NCBI RefSeq assembly: GCF_001698225.1
Contig: NZ_CP016594.1
Span: 4,278,001-4,342,000 of the forward strand
Direction of reading: 5' to 3'
From: Gordonia terrae
GTDB taxonomy: Bacteria > Actinomycetota > Actinomycetes > Mycobacteriales > Mycobacteriaceae
Length of the DNA stretch: 64,000 bases
The translations under genes were made by a program, and so were the position numbers. Below, in pieces: positions 5,297 to 31,116 of the stretch. The notes beneath the pieces were generated by a model. That model was given only the letters and a program-made list of their open reading frames with translations, did not search any database and was not told where the DNA came from. Numbering within the stretch: position 1 is the stretch's first letter; each line of letters begins with the position of its first letter.

Positions 5297-5380
5297 ATCG
5301 TCGTGGCACAGAGGGTGTCGCGCCGGCGAGTGACGACCGAACCGGGCACCTGTCGGATTCGGGCGATATGGTCGGCAACG

Positions 5381-6493
5381 ATGAACATCCGTCCGTCCAC
5401 GCTCGACGCGGCCGTGCGTCCCGGACACGTGCTACGGGTCGACGACGTGGACGGCCTCGCCCTGGCCGACCTCGTCGACTCGGTCTCGGCCGAGCTGCCC
5501 GTGTTCCTGGACCACCGCGGGCCGACGGATCGCACTGCTCGGGAGGTCGTCGGTGAGGTCCTCGACGCCCTCGAAGACATCGTCGTCGCGCTCTTCCCCA
5601 CCTGGCTCCCGGGCGGCGAGTCCGGCTCGCTGGTCGATGCCGACGACGCCGAATCACGGGCGCGTGCGCTGTGCCGCGACGCCGGCTTTCCCTCGCCCGC
5701 TGTCGCCCATCTGGCCCGTGCAGCTGCCGGTGCGCGTCGACCGGCTTCGAGGCCCGCCGACGATGCCCGGGCGGGAGCGCTGACATTCCTCCTCAGACGG
5801 TCGTACGGTCGGGACGCCGTCGTCCTGGCAGTACGCGCCCACACGGCACTGCCCGAGCGCGCCCAGCACGCCGCGGCCGCCGCATACGACTGGCTGGCGG
5901 ACCACGCGGACCTCACCGTGTGGCTCACCGCCGACGCGCTACCGGCCGTCGCGCGGGTGCCGGTGGTGCGAATCGGGGTCGCCGACGGGCGGCGCCCCGA
6001 CCAGACCGGCCTCGCGGAGGTGCCGGTCGACCCGTCACCGGCCCCGGGTCCCGTTCTCGTCGTCTCCCGACCGGCGGGTGGACCGGCACCGCACAGCCCC
6101 GCCGAGCAGGCTCTCGAACGAGCCCTTGCGAGGGCGCCGTGGGCGCGCGACCGCCAGTGGAACCGGAGTCCGGGTGACCTCGACCCGCTGACGCCCGCGG
6201 TCATCGTCGACCTCCTGTGGTCGAGTGAACGGATCATCGTGGAGGTCGACGGCGCCGATCATCGCGGACCGGTAAAGTACGCGCGAGATCGACGTCGCGA
6301 CAACATGCTTCAGCGTGCCGGGTACCTCGTTCTGCGCTACACGAACGACCACGTTCTCGATGACCCCGCGCTTGTCGTCGCAGAATTGGCCGCCGCGATC
6401 GCCGAACGCTCCCCGTCGCGGGCACCCTCGCGACCGACGCCCGCCCGACCCCCTATGAACCGCGAGGAGCATCCGTGGACCACGCCCAGCTGA
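5381..6493 (+). CDS. Putative PD-(D/E)XK (DUF559/Vsr-like) endonuclease
   Basis: A 370-residue protein. I start it at the ATG at 5381 (MNIRPSTLDA); upstream in-frame starts would run back into the terminator hairpin. The C-terminal part (about 238-342) has the layout of the DUF559/Vsr nuclease fold: a first helix with glutamates (SPAEQALERALA), a strand with Asp277 (VIVDLLW), the strand IIVEVDG with Glu288 and Asp290, an Arg-rich helix (ARDRRRDNMLQ), then AGYLVLRYTNDHVLDDP. This suggests metal-dependent DNA cleavage. The N-terminal 235 residues match nothing I recognise; they contain predicted strands such as DAVVLAVRAHTAL and LTVWLTADALP, perhaps a target-sensing or second nuclease-like domain. 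Its last 19 bases overlap the next gene, so the proteins are probably made together. Confidence 0.65.
   Translation: MNIRPSTLDAAVRPGHVLRVDDVDGLALADLVDSVSAELPVFLDHRGPTDRTAREVVGEVLDALEDIVVALFPTWLPGGESGSLVDADDAESRARALCRDAGFPSPAVAHLARAAAGARRPASRPADDARAGALTFLLRRSYGRDAVVLAVRAHTALPERAQHAAAAAYDWLADHADLTVWLTADALPAVARVPVVRIGVADGRRPDQTGLAEVPVDPSPAPGPVLVVSRPAGGPAPHSPAEQALERALARAPWARDRQWNRSPGDLDPLTPAVIVDLLWSSERIIVEVDGADHRGPVKYARDRRRDNMLQRAGYLVLRYTNDHVLDDPALVVAELAAAIAERSPSRAPSRPTPARPPMNREEHPWTTPS
6464..6469 (+). promoter_or_regulatory. Ribosome binding site fixing the 6475 GTG start
   Basis: GAGGAG sits 5 bases before the GTG, inside the end of the upstream nuclease gene. It decides the start of the 225-residue protein and shows translation is coupled to the nuclease. 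Confidence 0.7.
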
Positions 6494-7152
6494 CGCCGAC
6501 TCAGAGCGCGGCGCTGTTCGTCCTGCTGGCCGAGTCACGCGAGCTCTCCAACCCCGAACTGAAGGAGCTCGGTCCCGCGCTCGACAAGCCGGCCCGGGAC
6601 CATCTCAACGCACTCGGCCTCGTCGACTCACGGATCGGCGCCCGTCGCGCCTGGTTCCACACGCTGACCGACCGCGGCTGGGCCTGGTGTGCATCCGAAC
6701 TGACCTCCGAGCCACCCAAGAGATCGACCGCGCCGTCGAAGGCCATGTACGCGGTGCTCGCCGGACTCGCCCGCTACCTCGACGACGAGGACCTCCGTCT
6801 GCACGAGGTGTTCGGCCGCCCCCGTCGCCCGGATCACACGGAGTCCGACACTCGAGCCCCGGCGACGCCTGCGCCCGACCCCGCGTCGCGCGATCCCCGT
6901 GCGCAGATCGCGGCGGCCTACCGAGCCCGGGCCGCCGCTGCGGGCGACTTCGTCCTCGTCGCCGATCTCCGCACCGACGTGCCCGGGATCGGCGCCGAGG
7001 TCTTCGACGCCACCATGGTGGAGTTCCAGCGCGAATCCGGCGTCAGCCTCATCCCTCAGGAGGACCAGGCGCTGCTGACCCCGGAAGACCGCGCCGCCGC
7101 GGTCACGGTGGGCACCCAGCCCTGTCATCTGTTCGCGATCGAGGAGATCTGA
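6475..7152 (+). CDS. Hypothetical protein with probable winged-helix domains
   Basis: A 225-residue protein not assigned to a named family. The first 75 residues read like a winged helix-turn-helix: LTPTQSAALFVLLAESRELS, then NPELKELGPALDKPARDHLNA, a short strand region with GARRAWFHTLTDRGWAW. After a Pro/Ala/Asp-rich linker (about 120-140), a second compact domain (about 143-225) has helices and a turn typical of another winged helix: FVLVADLRTDVPGIGAEVFD, then MVEFQRESGVSLIP. A DNA-binding or adaptor role for the neighbouring ATPase is an inference. The start overlaps the nuclease gene by 19 bases and the stop is 4 bases before the ATPase start, so the three proteins are probably produced at matched levels and may form one complex. 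Confidence 0.7.
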   Translation: MDHAQLTPTQSAALFVLLAESRELSNPELKELGPALDKPARDHLNALGLVDSRIGARRAWFHTLTDRGWAWCASELTSEPPKRSTAPSKAMYAVLAGLARYLDDEDLRLHEVFGRPRRPDHTESDTRAPATPAPDPASRDPRAQIAAAYRARAAAAGDFVLVADLRTDVPGIGAEVFDATMVEFQRESGVSLIPQEDQALLTPEDRAAAVTVGTQPCHLFAIEEI

Positions 7153-7156
7153 TCCG

Positions 7157-10100
7157 ATGGACGCCGACGCCCGTCAGGCACTCGAGTCCATCCGACTCAA
7201 CTGGGCCGACACCCCTGACGACGTGTGGGGCACCGCCGACCCCTTTCACGTCGGCGGCCTGCACGAGGACACCATCGTCGACATCGTCCGATCCTTCGAC
7301 GACGCCCGGCGCTCACCGTCGGGAAGCCCGATCGGGGTCACCGTGCGCGGACCGGCCGGATCGGGTAAGACGCACCTGCTCGGTCGGGTCCGACATCGGG
7401 TCCAGGAGGAGGGCGGCTACTTCTTTCTCGTCAAGTTGCTCGACGCCACCGACTTCTGGCGTTCGGTTCTCGTCGCGATCATCGATGATCTCGGACGACC
7501 GGCTCCGCGACATCGCTCGCAACTGAACCAGCTCCTCCACCGACTCGCGATCGACGCCGAGGTGTCGGACGACACGCGTGCCGCGGTGACCGGTGGCGCA
7601 CCGCTGCAACCCGCGGCGCTCGACGACTTCATCCACGGCGTCTACACGCGCCACTCCCGGCACCGGCGCCGTTCGCAGCACATCCTGCGTGCACTCGTAC
7701 TGCTCGAGTCCGACGACTTCGCGGCCAAGGACCTCGGCGAGGCGTTCCTGCATCTCGACATCGACGACGCCGACGAGCTCGCCGCGTGGGGGATCCGCAA
7801 CGCCCGACTCGGCTACCAGGAGATCGTGGAGAACATCTCGCGCATCATCGCCTTCGATGATGCCGCGGTGCTCGCCATCGACCAGATCGACACCCTGATC
7901 GAGGCCGGGAAGACCGCCGAACCCGGCGAGGAATCCCAAGTGGAGAAGCTGGCGCACGGTCTCATGTCGGTGCGCGAGACCATGAGCCGAACGACCTGTG
8001 TGGTCTCCTCGATCTCCGCGGCGTGGGACTACCTGTCCGGGCACGTCATGCGATCGGCGGTCGACCGCTTCCGGTTACCACCCACGCTGCAGCGGCCGGC
8101 CAGCGCCGATTTCGGCCGGTTGCTCCTCGCCCGGCGCTTCGCCCCGGGTTTTTCCGGGGTGGGATTCACACCGCCGCACCCTACGTGGCCGGTGTCCGAT
8201 ACCGCGCTGAGGACGGCAACCGACTACACACCACGCGAACTGATGGTGACCGTGGACCGCCAGATCGCCGCACTGCTCCGCAGCGACACCTTTGCCGAGA
8301 TCACCGACCTCACTGGAGCCGCGCAGACGAGTCCCGCGACGACCACCACCACATCCATCTCGGGGGCGGGCCAGACCACGATTCCGGGAATCGACGAATC
8401 CGGTCGCGACACAGCAACTCCCGCGACCGACCACACTCCCTCTCGAACATCGCCGCCGACAGCCGTCTCGTCGGACGATGCGCCATTCACGAAGATCGAT
8501 CAGCGATACGCGGACCTGATCTCGCGCGCCGACCCCCTACCCGCGTTGGTACCCGACACCGAGGACAGGATCGTCCCGTCACTCCTGCACGCGGGACTGT
8601 CGACCTGGATCCAGGCCCTCACGCGCGACGCCGACCTCTGGCAGCTCGACGCTCGGCCGGGCCCGAAAAGCCCGCTGCACGGGCGCATCCGGCAGCTCGT
8701 CGACCCCAACCGGGACATCGAACAGTCCTGGAGCTTCCGCGCGATCGCCGCATCGAACGCGCGGGCCGTCCAGACCCGACTGTCGAGCGCGACCACGACC
8801 TCCGGGTTCACGCTCGGCGACATCGAACGCACCCTGGTGATCCTCCGGCGGGACCCCTGGCCCACCGGCCCCAAGACCCAGCAGATGGTCACCGAACTCC
8901 ACGATCGTGGGGGCCGGGTCGTGGCCTGGACCGAACACGACATCAAACGGCTCAGTGCGTTGGCCACGCTGCGCGCCGAACGGCCATCGCATCTCCGCGA
9001 GTGGATCTCCGCCCGCAACCCGGCCGCCGAGATCGAATTCATCGCCGACATCCTGGGCCCCGCACTCGAGGCGCCTGCGGCCCGTGTGGACACACCGGTG
9101 GCCCCGGCGTCACAGACGGACACGACGTCAGGACGACGCGAGCCGGGCACCGCGGGCCACACCTCGACCCCGCCGACACCCCGCGAACCGGAGGCCGGGA
9201 ACCCCCGGTCCACCGACCCGCAGTCCTCCGACCGCCAGTCCCCCGACCTACCGTCGCGGTCGGAGTCGCCGGGTTCGGACGTCGGCGGATCACGCTCGCG
9301 GACAACCGCGTCCGTCGTCGACCAGTCGATCACACTCGGGCGAAGTGTCGCCACCGGCGAGGGGGTGACGGTCTCACTGCTCGCCCTGCGCAAGCACGTG
9401 GCGCTGTTCGCCGGATCCGGTTCGGGTAAGACGGTGCTCATCCGACGCATCGTCGAAGAGGCTGCGTTGCGGGGAGTGTCATCGATCATCCTGGATGTGA
9501 ACAACGACCTCGCCCGCCTGGGGACACCGTGGCCGGACGACGACCCGCGCCCGTGGACACCCGCCGACCGCGAACTCGCCAAGCGCTACCTCCACGACAC
9601 CGAGGTCGCCGTTTTCACCCCGGGCCGGGCATCGGGACGTCCACTGAGTTTCCAACCGCTACCGGACTTCAGCACGGTCGCCGGCAACCCCGACGAGTTC
9701 CGCGCCGCGGTCGACTCCGCCGTCGGCGCGCTGATCCCGCATGCCCGGGCGATCGGCACCAGCGCGAAGGCCTACCGGCAGCAAGCAGTCCTGCAGCAGT
9801 CCATGGAGGCCTTCGGACGCCGCGGCGGCGGAACCCTGCAGGCCTACGTCGGATTGCTGACCGAGTTGCCGGACGACGCGAGCACCCTCGCCGACGCTCC
9901 CAAGCTCGCCGCCGAACTCGCCGAGAACCTCAAGGCCTCCATGGCGATCGATCCCGTCTTCGGGGGTGACGCCGCCCCGGCCGACCCCGGGTTCCTCCTC
10001 ACCCCGGGTCCCGGCTTCCGGGCCCGGGTGTCGGTCATCAATCTCGCCGGCCTGGGCACCGACGACCGGCGGGCGAGTTTCGTGAACCAGCTCCAGATGG

Positions 10101-10567
10101 CACTGTTCGCCTGGATCAAGAAGAACCCCGCCGTGGATCGACCACTCGGCGGCCTGCTCGTGATGGACGAGGCGCAGAACTTCGCCCCGTCCGTCCGGAT
10201 GACCGCGGCGTCGAAGAGCACCAGTGCACTGGCGTCGCAGGCTCGCAAGTACGGGCTCGGTCTGATCTTCGCGACCCAGTCGCCGACCGGTATCGACAAC
10301 AAGATCTCGGCCAACTCCTCGACCCAGATCTTCGGGCTTCTCAATCATCCGACACAGATCGACCGCGCCAAGGAACTCGCCGCCAACAAGGGCAGCAGGG
10401 TGCCCGACATCGGCAAGCTACCGGCGGGAACGTTCTACATCGCGAGCGAGGGCGGGCGGTTCGCGAAAGCGGCGACCCCGCTGTGCCTGACATATCACCC
10501 GTCGAGTCCCCCGACCGAGGACGAGGTGGTCGAACTCGCCCGCTCGACGGCACCGCGCGGACAGTGA
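7157..10567 (+). CDS. Dual P-loop NTPase: AAA/ORC-like plus HerA/FtsK-like domain
   Basis: An 1136-residue protein with two separate ATPase domains. Domain 1 (about 1-375) has Walker A GPAGSGKT at 65-72 and Walker B VLAIDQIDTL at about 238-247, like the AAA/ORC-type ATPases of DNA-handling systems. A Ser/Thr/Pro-rich linker follows (390-440). A middle region (about 445-637) matches no family I can name. It contains RTLVILRRDPWPTGPKTQQM and VVAWTEHDIKRL, a Rossmann-like strand-helix pattern. A second disordered linker (640-715) leads to domain 2 (about 720-1130), with GSGSGKT at 753-759, LVMDEAQNF at 1001-1009 and the sensor segment FATQSP at 1038-1043. This pattern is that of HerA/FtsK/VirB4 motors that pump DNA. 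Positioned behind a nuclease gene, a DNA-processing or defence role is likely but unproven. Confidence 0.8.
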   Translation: MDADARQALESIRLNWADTPDDVWGTADPFHVGGLHEDTIVDIVRSFDDARRSPSGSPIGVTVRGPAGSGKTHLLGRVRHRVQEEGGYFFLVKLLDATDFWRSVLVAIIDDLGRPAPRHRSQLNQLLHRLAIDAEVSDDTRAAVTGGAPLQPAALDDFIHGVYTRHSRHRRRSQHILRALVLLESDDFAAKDLGEAFLHLDIDDADELAAWGIRNARLGYQEIVENISRIIAFDDAAVLAIDQIDTLIEAGKTAEPGEESQVEKLAHGLMSVRETMSRTTCVVSSISAAWDYLSGHVMRSAVDRFRLPPTLQRPASADFGRLLLARRFAPGFSGVGFTPPHPTWPVSDTALRTATDYTPRELMVTVDRQIAALLRSDTFAEITDLTGAAQTSPATTTTTSISGAGQTTIPGIDESGRDTATPATDHTPSRTSPPTAVSSDDAPFTKIDQRYADLISRADPLPALVPDTEDRIVPSLLHAGLSTWIQALTRDADLWQLDARPGPKSPLHGRIRQLVDPNRDIEQSWSFRAIAASNARAVQTRLSSATTTSGFTLGDIERTLVILRRDPWPTGPKTQQMVTELHDRGGRVVAWTEHDIKRLSALATLRAERPSHLREWISARNPAAEIEFIADILGPALEAPAARVDTPVAPASQTDTTSGRREPGTAGHTSTPPTPREPEAGNPRSTDPQSSDRQSPDLPSRSESPGSDVGGSRSRTTASVVDQSITLGRSVATGEGVTVSLLALRKHVALFAGSGSGKTVLIRRIVEEAALRGVSSIILDVNNDLARLGTPWPDDDPRPWTPADRELAKRYLHDTEVAVFTPGRASGRPLSFQPLPDFSTVAGNPDEFRAAVDSAVGALIPHARAIGTSAKAYRQQAVLQQSMEAFGRRGGGTLQAYVGLLTELPDDASTLADAPKLAAELAENLKASMAIDPVFGGDAAPADPGFLLTPGPGFRARVSVINLAGLGTDDRRASFVNQLQMALFAWIKKNPAVDRPLGGLLVMDEAQNFAPSVRMTAASKSTSALASQARKYGLGLIFATQSPTGIDNKISANSSTQIFGLLNHPTQIDRAKELAANKGSRVPDIGKLPAGTFYIASEGGRFAKAATPLCLTYHPSSPPTEDEVVELARSTAPRGQ

Positions 10568-10613
10568 TGGGGATACCCGACTCCGCCGACGGTCGGCCGC
10601 GCCGATTGGCACA

Positions 10614-12038
10614 ATGGACTCCGTGCTCACGCTGACCGCCGGAGAGAACCGACCACTGCCCTCGTCGGCCGTGACCGTCTCGGTGCGCTCGGCGTCGCCG
10701 GTGAACACCTCGGCGATCCTCCTCACCGACGCGGGCCGGGTCCGCTTCGATGCCGATCTCATCTTCTACAACCAGCCCGCCGGCCCCGGCGTCGGCTACC
10801 GCTCCGACGGATCCGCCGACATCATCTCCATCGACACCGCCGCCCTACCCCGCGACATCGTGACGGTGGTGGTCGCGGCGAGTCTCGACGGGACCGGACC
10901 CGCGAGCTTCGCCACCGCGGGTGCGCTCACCGCCACGGTGACCGGCGGCGGCGCCGAGCTCACCTTCAGCCCCGCGGGCCTCACCAGCGAAGCCGCCGTC
11001 GTCTGCCTGGAGATCTACCGGCGCAACGACGTGTGGAAGGTCCGTGCCGTCGGACAGGGATACGACGCGGGTCTCGCGGGCCTGGCGACCGCCTTCGGCA
11101 TCGAGGTCGACGAGGAGGAGCCCGCACCGCCGTCACCACCCGGACACTCTCCGCGGGTGACCGATCCGCAGCCCTGGCCACCGGCGGCCACACCACCGCC
11201 GGCAGCACCATCAGCGTCGTCGCCTGGAGCTCAAGCGTCGCAATCGAATACACCCCCACCGAGGCCTCCGGTCACCGCCCAACCACAGGGAGTTCCCATG
11301 CACAGCGATCTGTTCGCGCCGTCCCACGCCGAGGTCACCGGGCAGGGCATCCAGAAGCAGGGCAGCAAGATGTGCCGCGTGGGGCTCGCCGGCGAGGTGA
11401 TGGCCCGCAGCGGCTCGATGGTCGCGTACCAGGGCAATCTGAAATTCGAGGCGCTCGGCTCCGGAGGGCTCGGCCGGATGATGCGTCAGGCGATGACCGG
11501 CGAGGGCGTCCCGCTGATGAAGGTCACCGGGCAGGGCGACCTGTTCCTCGCCGATGCTGCGTCGGACGTGCACCTCATCGATCTCGACGGGTCCGACGGC
11601 CTCACCATCAACGGCGCCAACGTACTCGCCTTCGACTCGTCACTCTCCTACGACATCGCCCGCGTGCAGGGTGCCGGCGCGATGAGCAACGCCGGCATGT
11701 TCAACTGCGTCTTCACCGGCCGCGGGCGGATCGCCATCACCACCGACGGCACGCCGGTCGTCCTCAACGTCGACGCCGCGACCTACGCCGACCCCCAGGC
11801 CGCGGTCGCGTGGTCGTCGAGCCTGCGCACCTCGGTGAAGTCGAACGACTCGTTCAACCTCGGCACCCTCATGGGACGCAGCACCGGCGAGCGGTTCACC
11901 CTCGAGTTCTCCGGTCGGGGTTTCGTCGTCGTCCAGCCGTCGGAACTCCCGCCCGGCGGGTTCGTCGGCGGCACCGGCGGCGGGAGCGCGGCCGGCTCCG
12001 GCGCCGGCGGCATGCTGGGCGGCATCCTCGGCCGCTGA
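10614..12038 (+). CDS. TerD-AIM24 domain fusion protein
   Basis: A 474-residue two-domain protein. Residues 1-166 resemble TerD, the calcium-binding stress protein of tellurium-resistance loci: LTLTAGENRPLP at the start, then SAILLTDAGRVRFDADLIFYN and GYDAGLAGLATAFGIEVDEE at the end. Several acidic calcium ligands of classical TerD are missing (SPVNTSAILL where DLDASA is usual), so metal binding may be weak. A Pro/Ala-rich linker (167-228) joins an AIM24-like beta-helical domain (about 229-440; VTGQGIQKQGSKMCRVGL, AYQGNLKFEALGSGGL) and a Gly-rich tail. It starts 46 bases after the dual ATPase and has no obvious ribosome site, so it may be leaderless or coupled. Ter proteins have been linked to DNA-processing modules by comparative genomics, which fits this location. 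Confidence 0.8.
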   Translation: MDSVLTLTAGENRPLPSSAVTVSVRSASPVNTSAILLTDAGRVRFDADLIFYNQPAGPGVGYRSDGSADIISIDTAALPRDIVTVVVAASLDGTGPASFATAGALTATVTGGGAELTFSPAGLTSEAAVVCLEIYRRNDVWKVRAVGQGYDAGLAGLATAFGIEVDEEEPAPPSPPGHSPRVTDPQPWPPAATPPPAAPSASSPGAQASQSNTPPPRPPVTAQPQGVPMHSDLFAPSHAEVTGQGIQKQGSKMCRVGLAGEVMARSGSMVAYQGNLKFEALGSGGLGRMMRQAMTGEGVPLMKVTGQGDLFLADAASDVHLIDLDGSDGLTINGANVLAFDSSLSYDIARVQGAGAMSNAGMFNCVFTGRGRIAITTDGTPVVLNVDAATYADPQAAVAWSSSLRTSVKSNDSFNLGTLMGRSTGERFTLEFSGRGFVVVQPSELPPGGFVGGTGGGSAAGSGAGGMLGGILGR

Positions 12039-12873: not shown

Positions 12874-13059
12874 TCACCAGCTGGACTTCTGCACACCCGG
12901 CAGCTCGCCGGCGTGTGCCATGTCGCGCAGGCAGATTCGGCACAGGCCGAACTTGCGGAACACCGAGTGCGGGCGACCGCACTTGTTGCACCGGGTGTAG
13001 GCCCGCACGGCGAACTTGGGCTTCTTGTTGGCCTTGTTGACCAGAGCCTTCTTTGCCAT
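12874..13059 (-). CDS. rpsZ: 30S ribosomal protein S14 type Z (zinc form)
   Basis: A 61-residue protein, the length of the short zinc-binding S14. The four zinc ligands are Cys24 and Cys27 (CNKCGRPH) and Cys40 and Cys43 (CRICLRD). It begins [16 protein letters not shown] and ends GVQKSSW, almost diagnostic of actinobacterial S14. S14 helps assemble the head of the 30S subunit. It starts 1 base after the rplE stop and ends the cluster here; in the usual spc operon rpsH follows, but here a terminator hairpin and the convergent SRPBCC gene come next. Some actinobacteria also carry a zinc-free S14 copy; none is in the window. Confidence 0.98.
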
Positions 13060-13060
13060 G

Positions 13061-13672
13061 TCAGTTGTCCTTAACGTTGTTGTCCTTGAACGGGAAGCCC
13101 AGGGCACGCAGCAGCGCCCGGCCTTCGTCGTCCGTGGTGGCCGACGTCACGACGGTGATGTCCATACCGCGGGGCCGGTCGATGTTGTCGATGTTGATCT
13201 CGTGGAACATCGACTGCTCGTTCAGGCCGAACGTGTAGTTGCCGTTGCCGTCGAACTGACGGTCCGACAGGCCGCGGAAGTCGCGGATACGCGGGAGGGC
13301 GATGGACACGAGGCGGTCCAGGAACTCCCACATGCGGTCGCCACGGAGGGTGACGCGCGCGCCGATCGGCATGCCCTCGCGCAGCTTGAACTGTGCGATG
13401 GACTTGCGAGCGCGACGGATCTCCGGCTTCTGGCCGGTGATCTTGGCCAGATCCTCGACGGCGCCGTTGATCAGCTTCGCGTCACGGGCGGCGTCGCCGA
13501 CACCCATGTTCACGACGACCTTCACGACGCCCGGGATCAGCATCACGTTGGGGTATTCGAACTCTTTGTTCAGCGTGTCCTTGATCTCCTCGCGGTAGCG
13601 AGTCTTCAGGCGCGGCTGGATCTTGTCGGCGGAGCTTGCGGAGCCGCCGTTCACAGTTTCAGTAGAGGTCAT
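13061..13672 (-). CDS. rplE: 50S ribosomal protein L5
   Basis: A 203-residue L5, slightly long because of a Ser/Thr-rich N-terminal extension ([20 protein letters not shown]). The conserved core is clear: [57 protein letters not shown] and [21 protein letters not shown]5 holds 5S rRNA in the central protuberance of the large subunit and contacts P-site tRNA. One base separates it from rplX upstream and rpsN downstream, so it is part of a single leftward transcript with them. Confidence 0.99.
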
Positions 13673-13673
13673 G

Positions 13674-13991
13674 TCAGATGTCCTTCCCGCTCTTGCGCGA
13701 GATCCGGACCTTCTTGCCCGATTCCTCGTCGACGCGGTAGCCGACGCGGGTCGGGTTGCCGTCGGAATCCACGACCATCACGTTCGAGACGTGGATCGAG
13801 GCTTCCTGGGTCACGATGCCGCCGGAGGAGGCACCGCGCTCGTTGGCCGACGCGGCGGTGTGCTTCTTGATTCGGTTGACGCCCTCGACGAGAACTCGCT
13901 GCGTCTTCGGGAAGGCCTGGATGACCTTGCCCTTGGCGCCCTTGTCCTTGCCCGAGATGACGATCACGGTGTCACCCTTGTGGACCTTCAT
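13674..13991 (-). CDS. rplX: 50S ribosomal protein L24
   Basis: A 105-residue L24 with the KOW motif at its N-terminus ([20 protein letters not shown]) and the typical continuation [21 protein letters not shown]24 starts large-subunit assembly by binding the 5' part of 23S rRNA. It lies between rplN and rplE with 1-base gaps, the standard spc order, and starts at ATG. Confidence 0.99.
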
Positions 13992-13992
13992 G

Positions 13993-14361
13993 TCAGATCA
14001 CCTCCGGTGCCAGCGACACGATCTTCATGAACTTCTTCTCGCGCAGCTCGCGGCCGACCGGGCCGAAGATGCGGGTACCGCGGGGGTCGCTCTCACCCTT
14101 GAGGATGACGGCGGCGTTCTCGTCGAAGCGGATGTAGCTTCCGTCCGCACGACGGCGCTCCTTGGTGGTGCGCACGATGACGGCCTTGACGACCTCGCCC
14201 TTCTTGACGTTGCCGCCCGGGATGGCGTCCTTGACAGTGGCGACGATGACGTCGCCAATGCCGGCGTAGCGCCGCGAGGAACCGCCGAGCACGCGGATGC
14301 ACAAGATCTCCTTGGCACCGGTGTTGTCGGCGACTCGCAGGCGGGATTCCTGCTGAATCAC
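13993..14361 (-). CDS. rplN: 50S ribosomal protein L14
   Basis: A 122-residue L14 of normal length, starting at GTG ([20 protein letters not shown]). Other family segments are [20 protein letters not shown] and [21 protein letters not shown]14 lies at the subunit interface and binds L19 and translation factors. It is the first gene of this four-gene ribosomal block. Upstream there is no rpsQ/rpmC, as would be expected in an intact S10-spc arrangement, but a 602-base gap and a divergent peptide synthetase; the promoter for the block must lie in that gap. Confidence 0.99.
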
Positions 14362-14963
14362 TCGTTAGTCTCCTTGACCTGGCTTCTTATGTACGGCGGA
14401 TTTCCGACCCGACGCACACGGTCCGTTGCCACCGAACACACGCCTGCCTGGGGTTTTGGCCAGGCTGTGACACCTGAGCGGTCCGCCCCAGTGGGTTCGT
14501 GAGCCGATTCGCGACACAACAGTGCCGCAGGCAACCCCACAAGTGTAGGGGAATGCCCAGGTCCGGGCCAAATCGGTGCCGCCGTCATCGGCCGCGGGTT
14601 TCGGATGGCACCGGGCCGGGAAACTTTTTTTTCGCATCGACCCATCTGGGGTGTACCGCCACGCGAAGCACCCATGAGACGAGATCGACCAGATTACAAG
14701 CCCGCCCGGCGAGCCACGAGAGCGCGTCGGGAGGGAGCGAAACACGGGGGGCGTGTCAGCACCGGGGGAAATCTCGGCTGCCGATCGTGAGCCGAACGAT
14801 CACCATGCCTCCCGGCTCCGCAGCTCAGTCCGACAACCGCGGGCCTGACGGCAAGTCCTCGACTCCGGGCCACCCGCCCCGAGTTCGTGGACCGGAGTTC
14901 GAATCCCCACGCTCGATCCGGGTTCGACGCTGCCGTGCGGGCGCACTCACAGGGGAGGCACGC
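14362..14963. promoter_or_regulatory. 602-base divergent promoter region, rplN / NRPS1
   Basis: No convincing gene is present. The region must hold a leftward promoter for the ribosomal block and a rightward promoter for the 17-kb NRPS operon. I see no clear iron-box (IdeR/DmdR type) sequence. A short stretch at 14897-14910 resembles a tRNA T-loop but has no tRNA around it. Confidence 0.4.
14951..14958 (+). promoter_or_regulatory. Ribosome binding site for NRPS1
   Basis: AGGGGAGG lies 5 bases before GTG 14964. It decides this start over earlier in-frame codons, whose translation (Arg/Gly/Pro-rich) does not look like protein. Confidence 0.8.
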
Positions 14964-28864
<13,901 letters not shown>

Positions 28865-28868
<4 letters not shown>

Positions 28869-29122
28869 CGAACCCGTTCGACGACACCGAGGGGACCTTC
28901 CGCGTCCTCGTCAACCACGAGAACCAGCATTCCCTCTGGCCGGACTTCGCTCCCGTCCCGGACGGCTGGCGCGTGGTGTTCGGCCCGTCGGGTCACGACG
29001 AGTGCCTCGAATACGTCGAGGAGAACTGGCGGGACATGCGCCCGGCCAGTCTGATCCGCGCCATGGAACGTTCGCAGGACAGTGAAAGGGAGGTCACACA
29101 TGGGGCGGCACAGTATGGCTGA
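28865..29122 (+). CDS. MbtH-like protein, partner of NRPS1
   Basis: An 85-residue MbtH family protein: [20 protein letters not shown], then [20 protein letters not shown] and [14 protein letters not shown] carry the invariant tryptophans and the family NxExQxSLWP pattern. These small proteins bind adenylation domains and raise their solubility or activity. Its ATG overlaps the synthetase stop (ATGA at 28865-28868) behind AGGAGGAGG, a clear translational coupling with NRPS1. The C-terminal tail runs about 10 residues past the usual end and overlaps the start of the ABC gene by 23 bases. Confidence in the family is very high; that it serves NRPS1 is inferred from coupling. Confidence 0.97.
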
Positions 29123-30344
29123 CACGACATCGGCTGAGGCGACCACGACAACCCCGACGCCGGGTACCACCCCCGGCGCCGCCGCGCCGGCGCGGAACGC
29201 GCTCGAACTGCGCGGTCTGCGAAAGACGTTCCGCACCGGCCTGTTCGGCCGCGGCCGTCGCGTACACGCCCTCAACGGTCTGGACCTGACCGTGCCCGCG
29301 GGCACCGTGCACGCGCTGCTCGGGCCCAACGGTGCGGGCAAGACCACCACCGTCCGCGCGGTCGCGACCCTGATGAGGCCCGACGAGGGCAGCGTCCTGG
29401 TCGACGGTGTCGACGCCATCGCCGACCCCGGCGCGGCCCGCAAGATCATCGGTGTCTCCGGCCAGTACGCGGCCGTCGACGGGAACCTGACCGGCTTCGA
29501 GAACCTGCGGATGGTCGGGCAGCTGTACGGGCTGTCGCGCGGCGAGGCCTCCACACGTGCCCGTGAGCTGATCGCCGACCTCGCCCTCCAAGACGCCGCC
29601 GACCGGCCGATGCGCACCTACTCCGGCGGCATGCGCCGACGGCTCGACCTCGCCGGCGCCCTCATCAACCGGCCGTCGCTGGTGATCCTCGACGAGCCGA
29701 CCACCGGGTTGGATCCCCGTGGGCGGCGCCAGATGTGGGAGGTCATCACCGAACAGGTCGCGGGCGGCGCGACGGTGTTGCTGACGACGCAGTACCTCGA
29801 GGAGGCGGACGCACTGGCCGACGAGATCACCGTCATCGACCACGGGACCATCCGTGCCCAGGGCAGTGCCGCCGATCTCAAGGCGGCCACCGGCGGTTCG
29901 ATCCTCACCGTCGAGGTCGACATGCGCTCGGGATCGCCGGAACCGCAGGACGAGCTCGTCGCCACGACACTGGCCGAGATCGGTCTCGGCATGCCCGAAC
30001 GACTCGAGAGCGAGGCCACCGCCCACCCGGGGTCGACGGGCACCCGATGGTCGATTCCCGTCGACAACGGAACGCGCAGTGCCGTCGAGGCCGTCCGCGC
30101 CCTCGACGCCGTCGGCATCGACGTCGTGGACGCCACGGTCGCGACCCCGACGCTCGACGACGTGTTCCTGACCCTCACGGAGCGCGACACGCACGGGACC
30201 GACGGCGACAGCGACGCCGGTGTCGGTACACCGGCGGGGTCCCATGCCGATGCCGAGACCGCCGTCATCCCGAAGGTGTCCGACGCCGATCCCGACCTCT
30301 CCCACGCCCCGACGACCCGATCGGATCGACTCCATGCTCACTGA
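29100..30344 (+). CDS. DrrA-like ABC transporter ATP-binding protein
   Basis: A 414-residue ATPase of the daunorubicin-resistance (DrrA) family. Walker A is GPNGAGKT (75-82), the Q-loop follows at GQYAAVD, the ABC signature is YSGGM (174-178) and Walker B LVILDEP (194-200). Starts from ATG 29100 because GGGAGG (29088-29093) sits 6 bases upstream. A Thr/Pro/Ala-rich N-terminal stretch of about 30 residues and an acidic C-terminal tail (after [12 protein letters not shown]) extend the core. With the permease encoded next it should form an ABC-2 exporter; in this operon it probably moves the NRPS1 product or its lipid form across the membrane. That cargo is an inference from gene order. Confidence 0.93.
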
Positions 30345-31116
30345 CACCGCAGTCCTGGTCGAACGAAATCTGCTCACCGTCAAGCGAATTCCGACCCTGC
30401 TCATCAGCGCCACCATCCAGCCGCTGATGTTCGTGTTCCTGTTCGCCTACGTCTTCGGCGCGACGTTCGGCGGGGGTTCCTACCGCGAGTTCCTGATGGC
30501 GGGCATCTTCACCCAGACCGTGGTGTTCAACGCGGCGTTCACCACCGTCGGCCTGGCGAACGACACCTCCGACGGCATCGTCGACCGGCTCCGGTCCCTG
30601 CCGATGTCCCGGTTGGGCGTCATCAGCGGACGCGTCACCTCGGACATGCTGCTGGGGATCGTCGGCCTTGCGGTGATGGTCGCCTGCGGTCTCGCGATCG
30701 GCTGGCGGGTCCAGGGCAGCGCCGGCGACGCCGCCCTCGCCTTCGGCATCATCGGCCTGTTCGCACTCGCCATGGCCTGGGTCGGGGCCGTGACCGGTCT
30801 CGCCGCGCCGAATGTCGAAGCCGCGCAGAGCATCGGCTTCCTGTGGATGTTCCCGGTCACCTTCTTGTCGAGCGCGTTCATCTCGGCCCAGAGCCTGCCC
30901 GGACCGTTGCGTGCGATCGCCGAATGGAACCCGGTCACCGCAGTGGCGACGGCATCCCGGCAGCTCTTCGGCAACGAGGCGCCGCCCACCTTCCCCGAGG
31001 CCACCGGATGGGTCGCCGACCACGCGGTCGCGTACTCGGTCGGTTCGGCCCTGGTCATACTGGCGGTGTGCATACCTGCCTCGCTCATCCTGTACCGCCG
31101 TGCCGCCAACCGGTGA
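30334..31116 (+). CDS. DrrB-like ABC-2 type permease
   Basis: A 260-residue membrane protein with six likely helices, including LLISATIQPLMFVFLFAYVF, LLGIVGLAVMVACGLAIGW, AFGIIGLFALAMAWVGAVTG, SIGFLWMFPVTFLSSAFISA and SALVILAVCIPASLILY. The segments RLRSLPMSRLGVISGR and AEWNPVTAVATASRQLFG are hallmarks of DrrB/ABC-2 permeases. Starts at ATG 30334 inside the end of drrA (11-base overlap), so the two subunits are coupled. Only one permease is present, so it may act as a homodimer. A longer N-terminus is possible in frame but would be Pro/Arg-rich and unconvincing. Confidence 0.93.
   Translation: MLTDTAVLVERNLLTVKRIPTLLISATIQPLMFVFLFAYVFGATFGGGSYREFLMAGIFTQTVVFNAAFTTVGLANDTSDGIVDRLRSLPMSRLGVISGRVTSDMLLGIVGLAVMVACGLAIGWRVQGSAGDAALAFGIIGLFALAMAWVGAVTGLAAPNVEAAQSIGFLWMFPVTFLSSAFISAQSLPGPLRAIAEWNPVTAVATASRQLFGNEAPPTFPEATGWVADHAVAYSVGSALVILAVCIPASLILYRRAANR

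Follow-up and report, generated by a model that had tools for sequence, protein, structure and literature searches.

A three-gene module of Gordonia terrae that resembles HerA/FtsK capture systems and often lacks its nuclease in relatives

The 'HerA/FtsK capture' systems are predicted anti-invader systems that bring together a HerA/FtsK motor, an AAA+ ATPase (Orc/CDC6), an inactive restriction-endonuclease (REase) domain after the AAA+ core, an active REase and a winged helix–turn–helix (wHTH) component (PMC10853773, main text). In the proposal made there the AAA+ and wHTH parts localize the apparatus and the motor pumps the DNA of the invader to the nuclease; the domain arrangements vary from system to system. 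We have analysed a 64,000-nucleotide stretch of Gordonia terrae DNA (NZ_CP016594.1, positions 4,278,001–4,342,000, assembly GCF_001698225.1; 'the window', whose numbering is used here) in which three adjoining genes (genes 1–3, 5381–10567), set against that description, resemble a single-chain variant of the capture systems. We give an even chance to the reading that they encode a DNA-translocating module which would intercept foreign double-stranded DNA and so act in defence.

As in the capture systems, a HerA/FtsK motor and an AAA+ ATPase occur with an apparently inactive REase-like domain right after the AAA+ core and a predicted active REase alongside (PMC10853773). The differences, as far as the main text of that paper describes the class, are that here the AAA+, REase-like and HerA parts are fused in one chain, that the nuclease is of the DUF559/Vsr type and is often absent and that the module is mostly chromosomal; DUF559, Vsr, TerD and AIM24 have no mention in that main text. 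No description of this exact gene set was found in the open-licence literature, which agrees with the original prediction, where four adjacent rightward genes had been proposed as one defence system.

HerA–Sir2 and HerA–NurA are systems in which a HerA-type motor is encoded with a nuclease or effector. The module shares this feature with them and with HerA–DUF4297, but it adds a fused AAA+ ATPase, a Vsr/DUF559 nuclease and a third subunit, and its partner is not NurA, Sir2 or DUF4297. HerA together with its partner nuclease DUF4297 is reported to confer phage resistance (PMC11291478). BREX-related capture (BRC) likewise joins HerA/FtsK to an ORC/Cdc6-type ATPase and a DNA-binding component (PMC12839542), but PglZ, DUF6079 and DUF4007 are not among the Pfam matches listed for genes 1–4. 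In the type III-B CoCoNuTs a Vsr-like PD-(D/E)xK effector is coupled to a motor, but that effector forms part of a helicase fusion (PMC11090510). The closest PADLOC model of the gene-3 HerA domain is mad8 of the MADS system (77.5 bits, 3e-22), but genes 1, 2 and 4 match no mad model, and a scan of six other window proteins for mad1–mad7 gave a lone weak match, of a TetR-like protein to mad1 (2.1e-4).

The four rightward genes are present, at 5381–12038 (+), on a single contig of 5.7 Mb. Gene 2 begins within the last 19 nucleotides of gene 1, which the two genes share, and 4 nucleotides separate genes 2 and 3. The module has the following features.

5341–10605 (+): the module as a cassette; the alignment with genome G015 starts at 5341, and the sequence from 10606 onward is common to module-free genomes
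5381–6493 (+): gene 1, predicted Vsr/DUF559-type nuclease, 370 residues (DUF559, E 2.8e-13; structure model with a predicted local distance difference test score, pLDDT, of 88.6; conserved residues)
5381–6025 (+): gene 1 residues 1–215, P-loop-NTPase-like domain that lacks a Walker A motif and is predicted to be inactive
6089–6415 (+): gene 1 residues 237–345, nuclease domain
6475–7152 (+): gene 2, 225 residues, GTG start, likely winged-helix DNA-binding partner (adjoins gene 3; DUF6293_C in homologues)
7157–10567 (+): gene 3, ATG start, 1136-residue twin ATPase (AAA+ / REase-like / HerA-FtsK)
7157–8296 (+): gene 3 residues 1–380, AAA+ ATPase with GPAGSGKT and DQID (AAA_22, AAA_16)
8531–9076 (+): gene 3 residues ~459–640, REase-like fold, apparently without catalytic residues
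9338–10516 (+): gene 3 residues 728–1120, HerA/FtsK-type motor with AGSGSGKT and MDEAQ (DUF87, HerA 4d2i, mad8)

The product of gene 3 is a single chain of an AAA+ ATPase, an apparently dead REase-like domain and a HerA/FtsK motor. Two P-loop ATPase domains, one of them HerA/FtsK-like, had been predicted and both score above the Pfam cut-offs: AAA_22 at 41.0 bits (cut-off 27, E 2.8e-10; AAA_16 E 1e-9) and DUF87/HerA at 34.2 bits (cut-off 23.2, E 3.5e-8). The motor matched the HerA structure 4d2i in a profile search (E 3.1e-9). For the AAA+ part a PDB sequence search gave only weak AAA matches (best E 0.064), and in the region examined for an Orc-type C-terminal wHTH (model residues 184–209) there were only helices and no wing was seen. 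The nearest protein match to gene 3 is a Gordonia protein, at 96%. Conservation was followed in 80 gene-3 loci, the top-scoring ones among at least 506 confirmed stretches and hence skewed toward close relatives. The AAA+ motif GxxGxGKT is present in all 80 and DQ[IL]D in 79 (DQVD in L070); Walker A and DEAQ of the motor are kept in all 80. The REase-like domain retains basic residues, with H508 and R528 in 74 of 74 sequences and R510 in 73.

The PD-(D/E)XK-type assignment of gene 1 is borne out. The sequence predicts a Vsr/DUF559-type cutter with a PD-(D/E)XK-like fold and conserved acidic and histidine residues: the DUF559 match reaches 50.1 bits (cut-off 20.6), and D277, E288, D290, G291 and H294 are invariant in all 48 aligned sequences. 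The N-terminal part is predicted to be a P-loop-like domain that, lacking Walker A, is inactive. The gene starts at ATG 5381, near which the homologue alignments begin, and stops at 6493; it matches no PADLOC model. Gene 2 is likely to encode a winged-helix DNA-binding subunit, a proposal weakly supported by its homologues, where the winged-helix model DUF6293_C of Pfam matches five of 46 sequences (best E 4.8e-4); for the window's own protein the Pfam scan matched no winged-helix model.

Genes 1–3 are a co-inherited module in which the nuclease depends one way on the ATPase. Gene 2 lies directly upstream of gene 3 in 80/80 loci (a contig end cuts it in L073, and in L063 it is split over two frames) and gene 1 adjoins in 47. 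Among 59 Gordonia genomes gene 1 occurs in 14 of the 19 with gene 3 and in none of the other 40 (Fisher p = 9e-10, relatedness uncorrected here and in the family sample). A sample of 151 genomes of the family, which takes in ten of the Gordonia genomes, gives 30/40 against 0/111 (p = 2e-23). Outside Gordonia full-length gene 1 is present in 27 of the 36 gene-3 genomes of this sample, in 26 of these close to gene 3 on the same contig. Sequence distances of gene 3 correlate with those of gene 1 (r 0.75, 48 sequences) and gene 2 (r 0.73, 46 sequences), with 0/500 shuffles reaching either value; shared descent contributes to both.

The distribution of gene 3 is patchy: it occurs in 19/59 Gordonia, 40/151 family and 2/198 phylum genomes, one of the last two being G000 itself. 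Gene 3 is in pieces in G007, G012 and G041 and in G067 is partial with two stops. The three-gene set is also present in Nonomuraea, Tsukamurella and Methylobacterium (gene 3 identity 35% in the last), and gene 3 has a large alphaproteobacterial branch of Methylobacterium, Methylorubrum and Rhodopseudomonas (among the best 120 of 929).

Some copies have unusual arrangements. L032 (1044–9576) carries two tandem gene 2–gene 3 pairs, with a nuclease before the first only, and then TerD-AIM24. In the Gordonia genome G007 (contig 46, 138127–145189) a single nuclease gene precedes a gene-3 copy and then the N-terminal half of a second. The nuclease frame of G033 has an internal TAG.

In the defence reading foreign DNA would be loaded by the AAA+ domain together with the gene-2 subunit, a likely winged-helix protein, then pumped by the HerA/FtsK-type motor and, wherever gene 1 persists, cut by the predicted Vsr-type nuclease. 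The REase-like domain, apparently dead but conserved in several basic residues, may serve as a DNA- or partner-binding platform. We infer that the three products form one complex with DNA as the substrate, and that phage or plasmid DNA would be the target. That genes 1–3 resemble published systems with a predicted anti-invader role upholds part of the original defence proposal, defence itself being predicted; the neighbourhoods scanned do not have the look of defence islands.

Several observations weigh against this reading. The nuclease is absent from 33 of the 80 loci (two of these, L073 and L053, near a contig end). A PADLOC scan of 130 neighbours of the module found single defence-type matches and no family in more than two neighbours. 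Module loci in Mycobacterium have neighbouring families in common, and such ordinary-looking settings would suit an accessory machine for chromosome maintenance or repair, comparable to the archaeal HerA–NurA pair, in which the motor would process host DNA that is broken or has failed to segregate and the nuclease would assist. Chromosomal location, and strong purifying selection with or without the nuclease, point the same way. Such a machine would nevertheless have to be dispensable to the 40/59 Gordonia and 111/151 family genomes without a gene-3 match and to tolerate an insertion/absence polymorphism at one site, and its partner is of the Vsr/DUF559 type, scans of gene 1 against Pfam, PADLOC and NCBIfam having found nothing that matches NurA. 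We regard this explanation as possible, if on the doubtful side.

Absence of the nuclease is the part that the capture model did not foresee, and it makes the module worth testing. Presence and absence change at least ten times on a quick gene-3 tree of 84 proteins (51 with the nuclease, 32 without, L073 left out). These changes, together with the complete three-gene set of the distant Methylobacterium copy, make loss the simpler reading: relatives appear to have lost the nuclease several times over. C-terminal remnants persist in three of the 33 nuclease-free loci (57 residues at 91% in L034, 57 at 68% in L053 and 17 at 88% in L056), and L034 additionally holds a weakly matching N-terminal nuclease stretch, as after an internal deletion. 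The 26 nuclease-free genomes searched, out of 33, gave no full-length gene 1 elsewhere at E <= 1e-10; 14 of these 26 have a nuclease-domain match elsewhere. The ATPase is under purifying selection even without the nuclease. Both ATPase sites are intact in 33/33 nuclease-free loci, and the ratio of nonsynonymous to synonymous substitution rates (dN/dS; NG86, three gene-3 domains, hand-picked close pairs, some with a common member) is 0.03–0.13 in six nuclease-free pairs compared with 0.02–0.33 in six nuclease-bearing pairs.

A motor whose motifs are kept where the cutter is missing suggests two further possibilities. In one, the pair made up of the winged-helix subunit and the AAA+/dead-REase/HerA chain would seize invading DNA and disable it by pumping, and the Vsr-type nuclease would be a detachable effector that actinobacterial lineages drop or keep; we consider this non-cutting capture unlikely. 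In the other, genes 2 and 3 would block or silence incoming DNA uncut, with the nuclease as an optional add-on effector. The intact motifs, the low dN/dS values and the nuclease remnants all favour such a motor pair, but the non-cutting block is only predicted, and the nuclease-domain matches elsewhere in the genome would allow a partner in trans. To us it appears quite improbable. Natural experiments exist in close relatives that differ in whether they carry the whole module or, within it, the nuclease; defence by a motor without a cutter is therefore directly testable, and the module offers a compact three-gene example for the predicted capture class.

The fourth gene and, beyond it, ribosomal protein genes that mark the site of the module follow.

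10614–12038 (+): TerD-AIM24 fusion gene, probably a neighbour and not a component (TerD and AIM24 matches)
12874–14361 (−): rpsN, rplE, rplX and rplN (spc operon), junction markers for the module (tblastn with annotated Tsukamurella proteins, 77–95% identity)

The fourth gene, 46 nucleotides beyond gene 3, encodes the predicted TerD-AIM24 fusion (TerD 73.0 bits, AIM24 123.4 bits, Pfam). An orthologue (at least 66% identity) is present in 25/59 Gordonia genomes, near full length in 22 and in pieces in three. The supposed tie between a Ter protein and the DNA-processing genes does not hold in Gordonia: TerD-AIM24 occurs in 5/19 module-bearing against 20/40 module-free genomes (8.05 genomes with both expected against the 5 observed; p 0.98 one-sided and 0.10 two-sided). 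Of the four-gene system as proposed, genes 1–3 remain as a conserved unit. A want of joint conservation, named at the outset as a ground for rejecting the system, is found for gene 4 and in part for gene 1.

A single four-gene system, in which TerD-AIM24 would sense stress or a ligand, would account for the co-directional arrangement, 0.06–0.8 kb apart, in 5/5 Gordonia genomes with both (one called gene intervenes in G027) and for TerD-AIM24 in the fetched flank of 10/80 loci, mostly of Rhodococcus and Williamsia. Against it, co-occurrence in Gordonia is not above chance, 10/10 fetched module-free TerD-AIM24 genes occupy the same ribosomal junction, and the position of the gene varies, being upstream in L017 and L058. 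We judge such a system very unlikely; TerD-AIM24 probably occupies the same chromosomal junction independently of the module.

Each of the 20 fetched loci (10 of 20 module-free TerD-AIM24 and 10 of 19 module loci) lies next to one or both of the spc-operon genes rpsN and rpsH: in the 20 kb read, rpsN was present in 17, rpsH in six and both in three. In other actinobacteria the module also lies beside rpsQ (11 loci). The rpsN–rpsH and rpsQ–rplN junctions of the actinobacterial ribosomal operon cluster are recurrent sites for accessory genes. Homology between the window and the closest module-free genomes starts at 10606, eight bases ahead of the TerD-AIM24 start codon. Both flanks match between G039 and G015, enclosing 131 bases in the former and 6967 in the latter, a stretch that contains the module plus a further called gene. 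The module is present or absent at one site (G015 compared with G039 and G022), a pattern in which gain is indistinguishable from loss.

Gain or loss at a site, and the combination of a ring motor, a nuclease and a DNA-binding subunit, could also mark the remnant of a mobile element's DNA-transfer or integration machinery. Phage records gave no match to gene 1 or gene 3, and viral contigs gave none to gene 3. A plasmid collection holds three gene-3 records, two of which are probably chromosomal because one carries ribosomal operons and one is 11.9 Mb long. We hold a mobile origin to be most improbable, on a weak test in which integrase, relaxase and terminal repeats were not searched for.

In Tsukamurella L002 (6526–15564), a record named 'plasmid 22' that bears ribosomal operon genes and is probably a chromosomal contig, the module shares the space between rplN and rpsQ with VapBC-type genes and a DEAD-box helicase. 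In the window itself the ribosomal operon cluster has taken up another large insertion: a 4789-residue non-ribosomal peptide synthetase (14499–28868, +) with AMP-binding, condensation and carrier domains and a terminal thioesterase, 137 bp from rplN. An ARAGORN tRNA call within its frame (22505–22592, −) is likely a false positive. ABC transporter genes (29082–31116) follow the synthetase.

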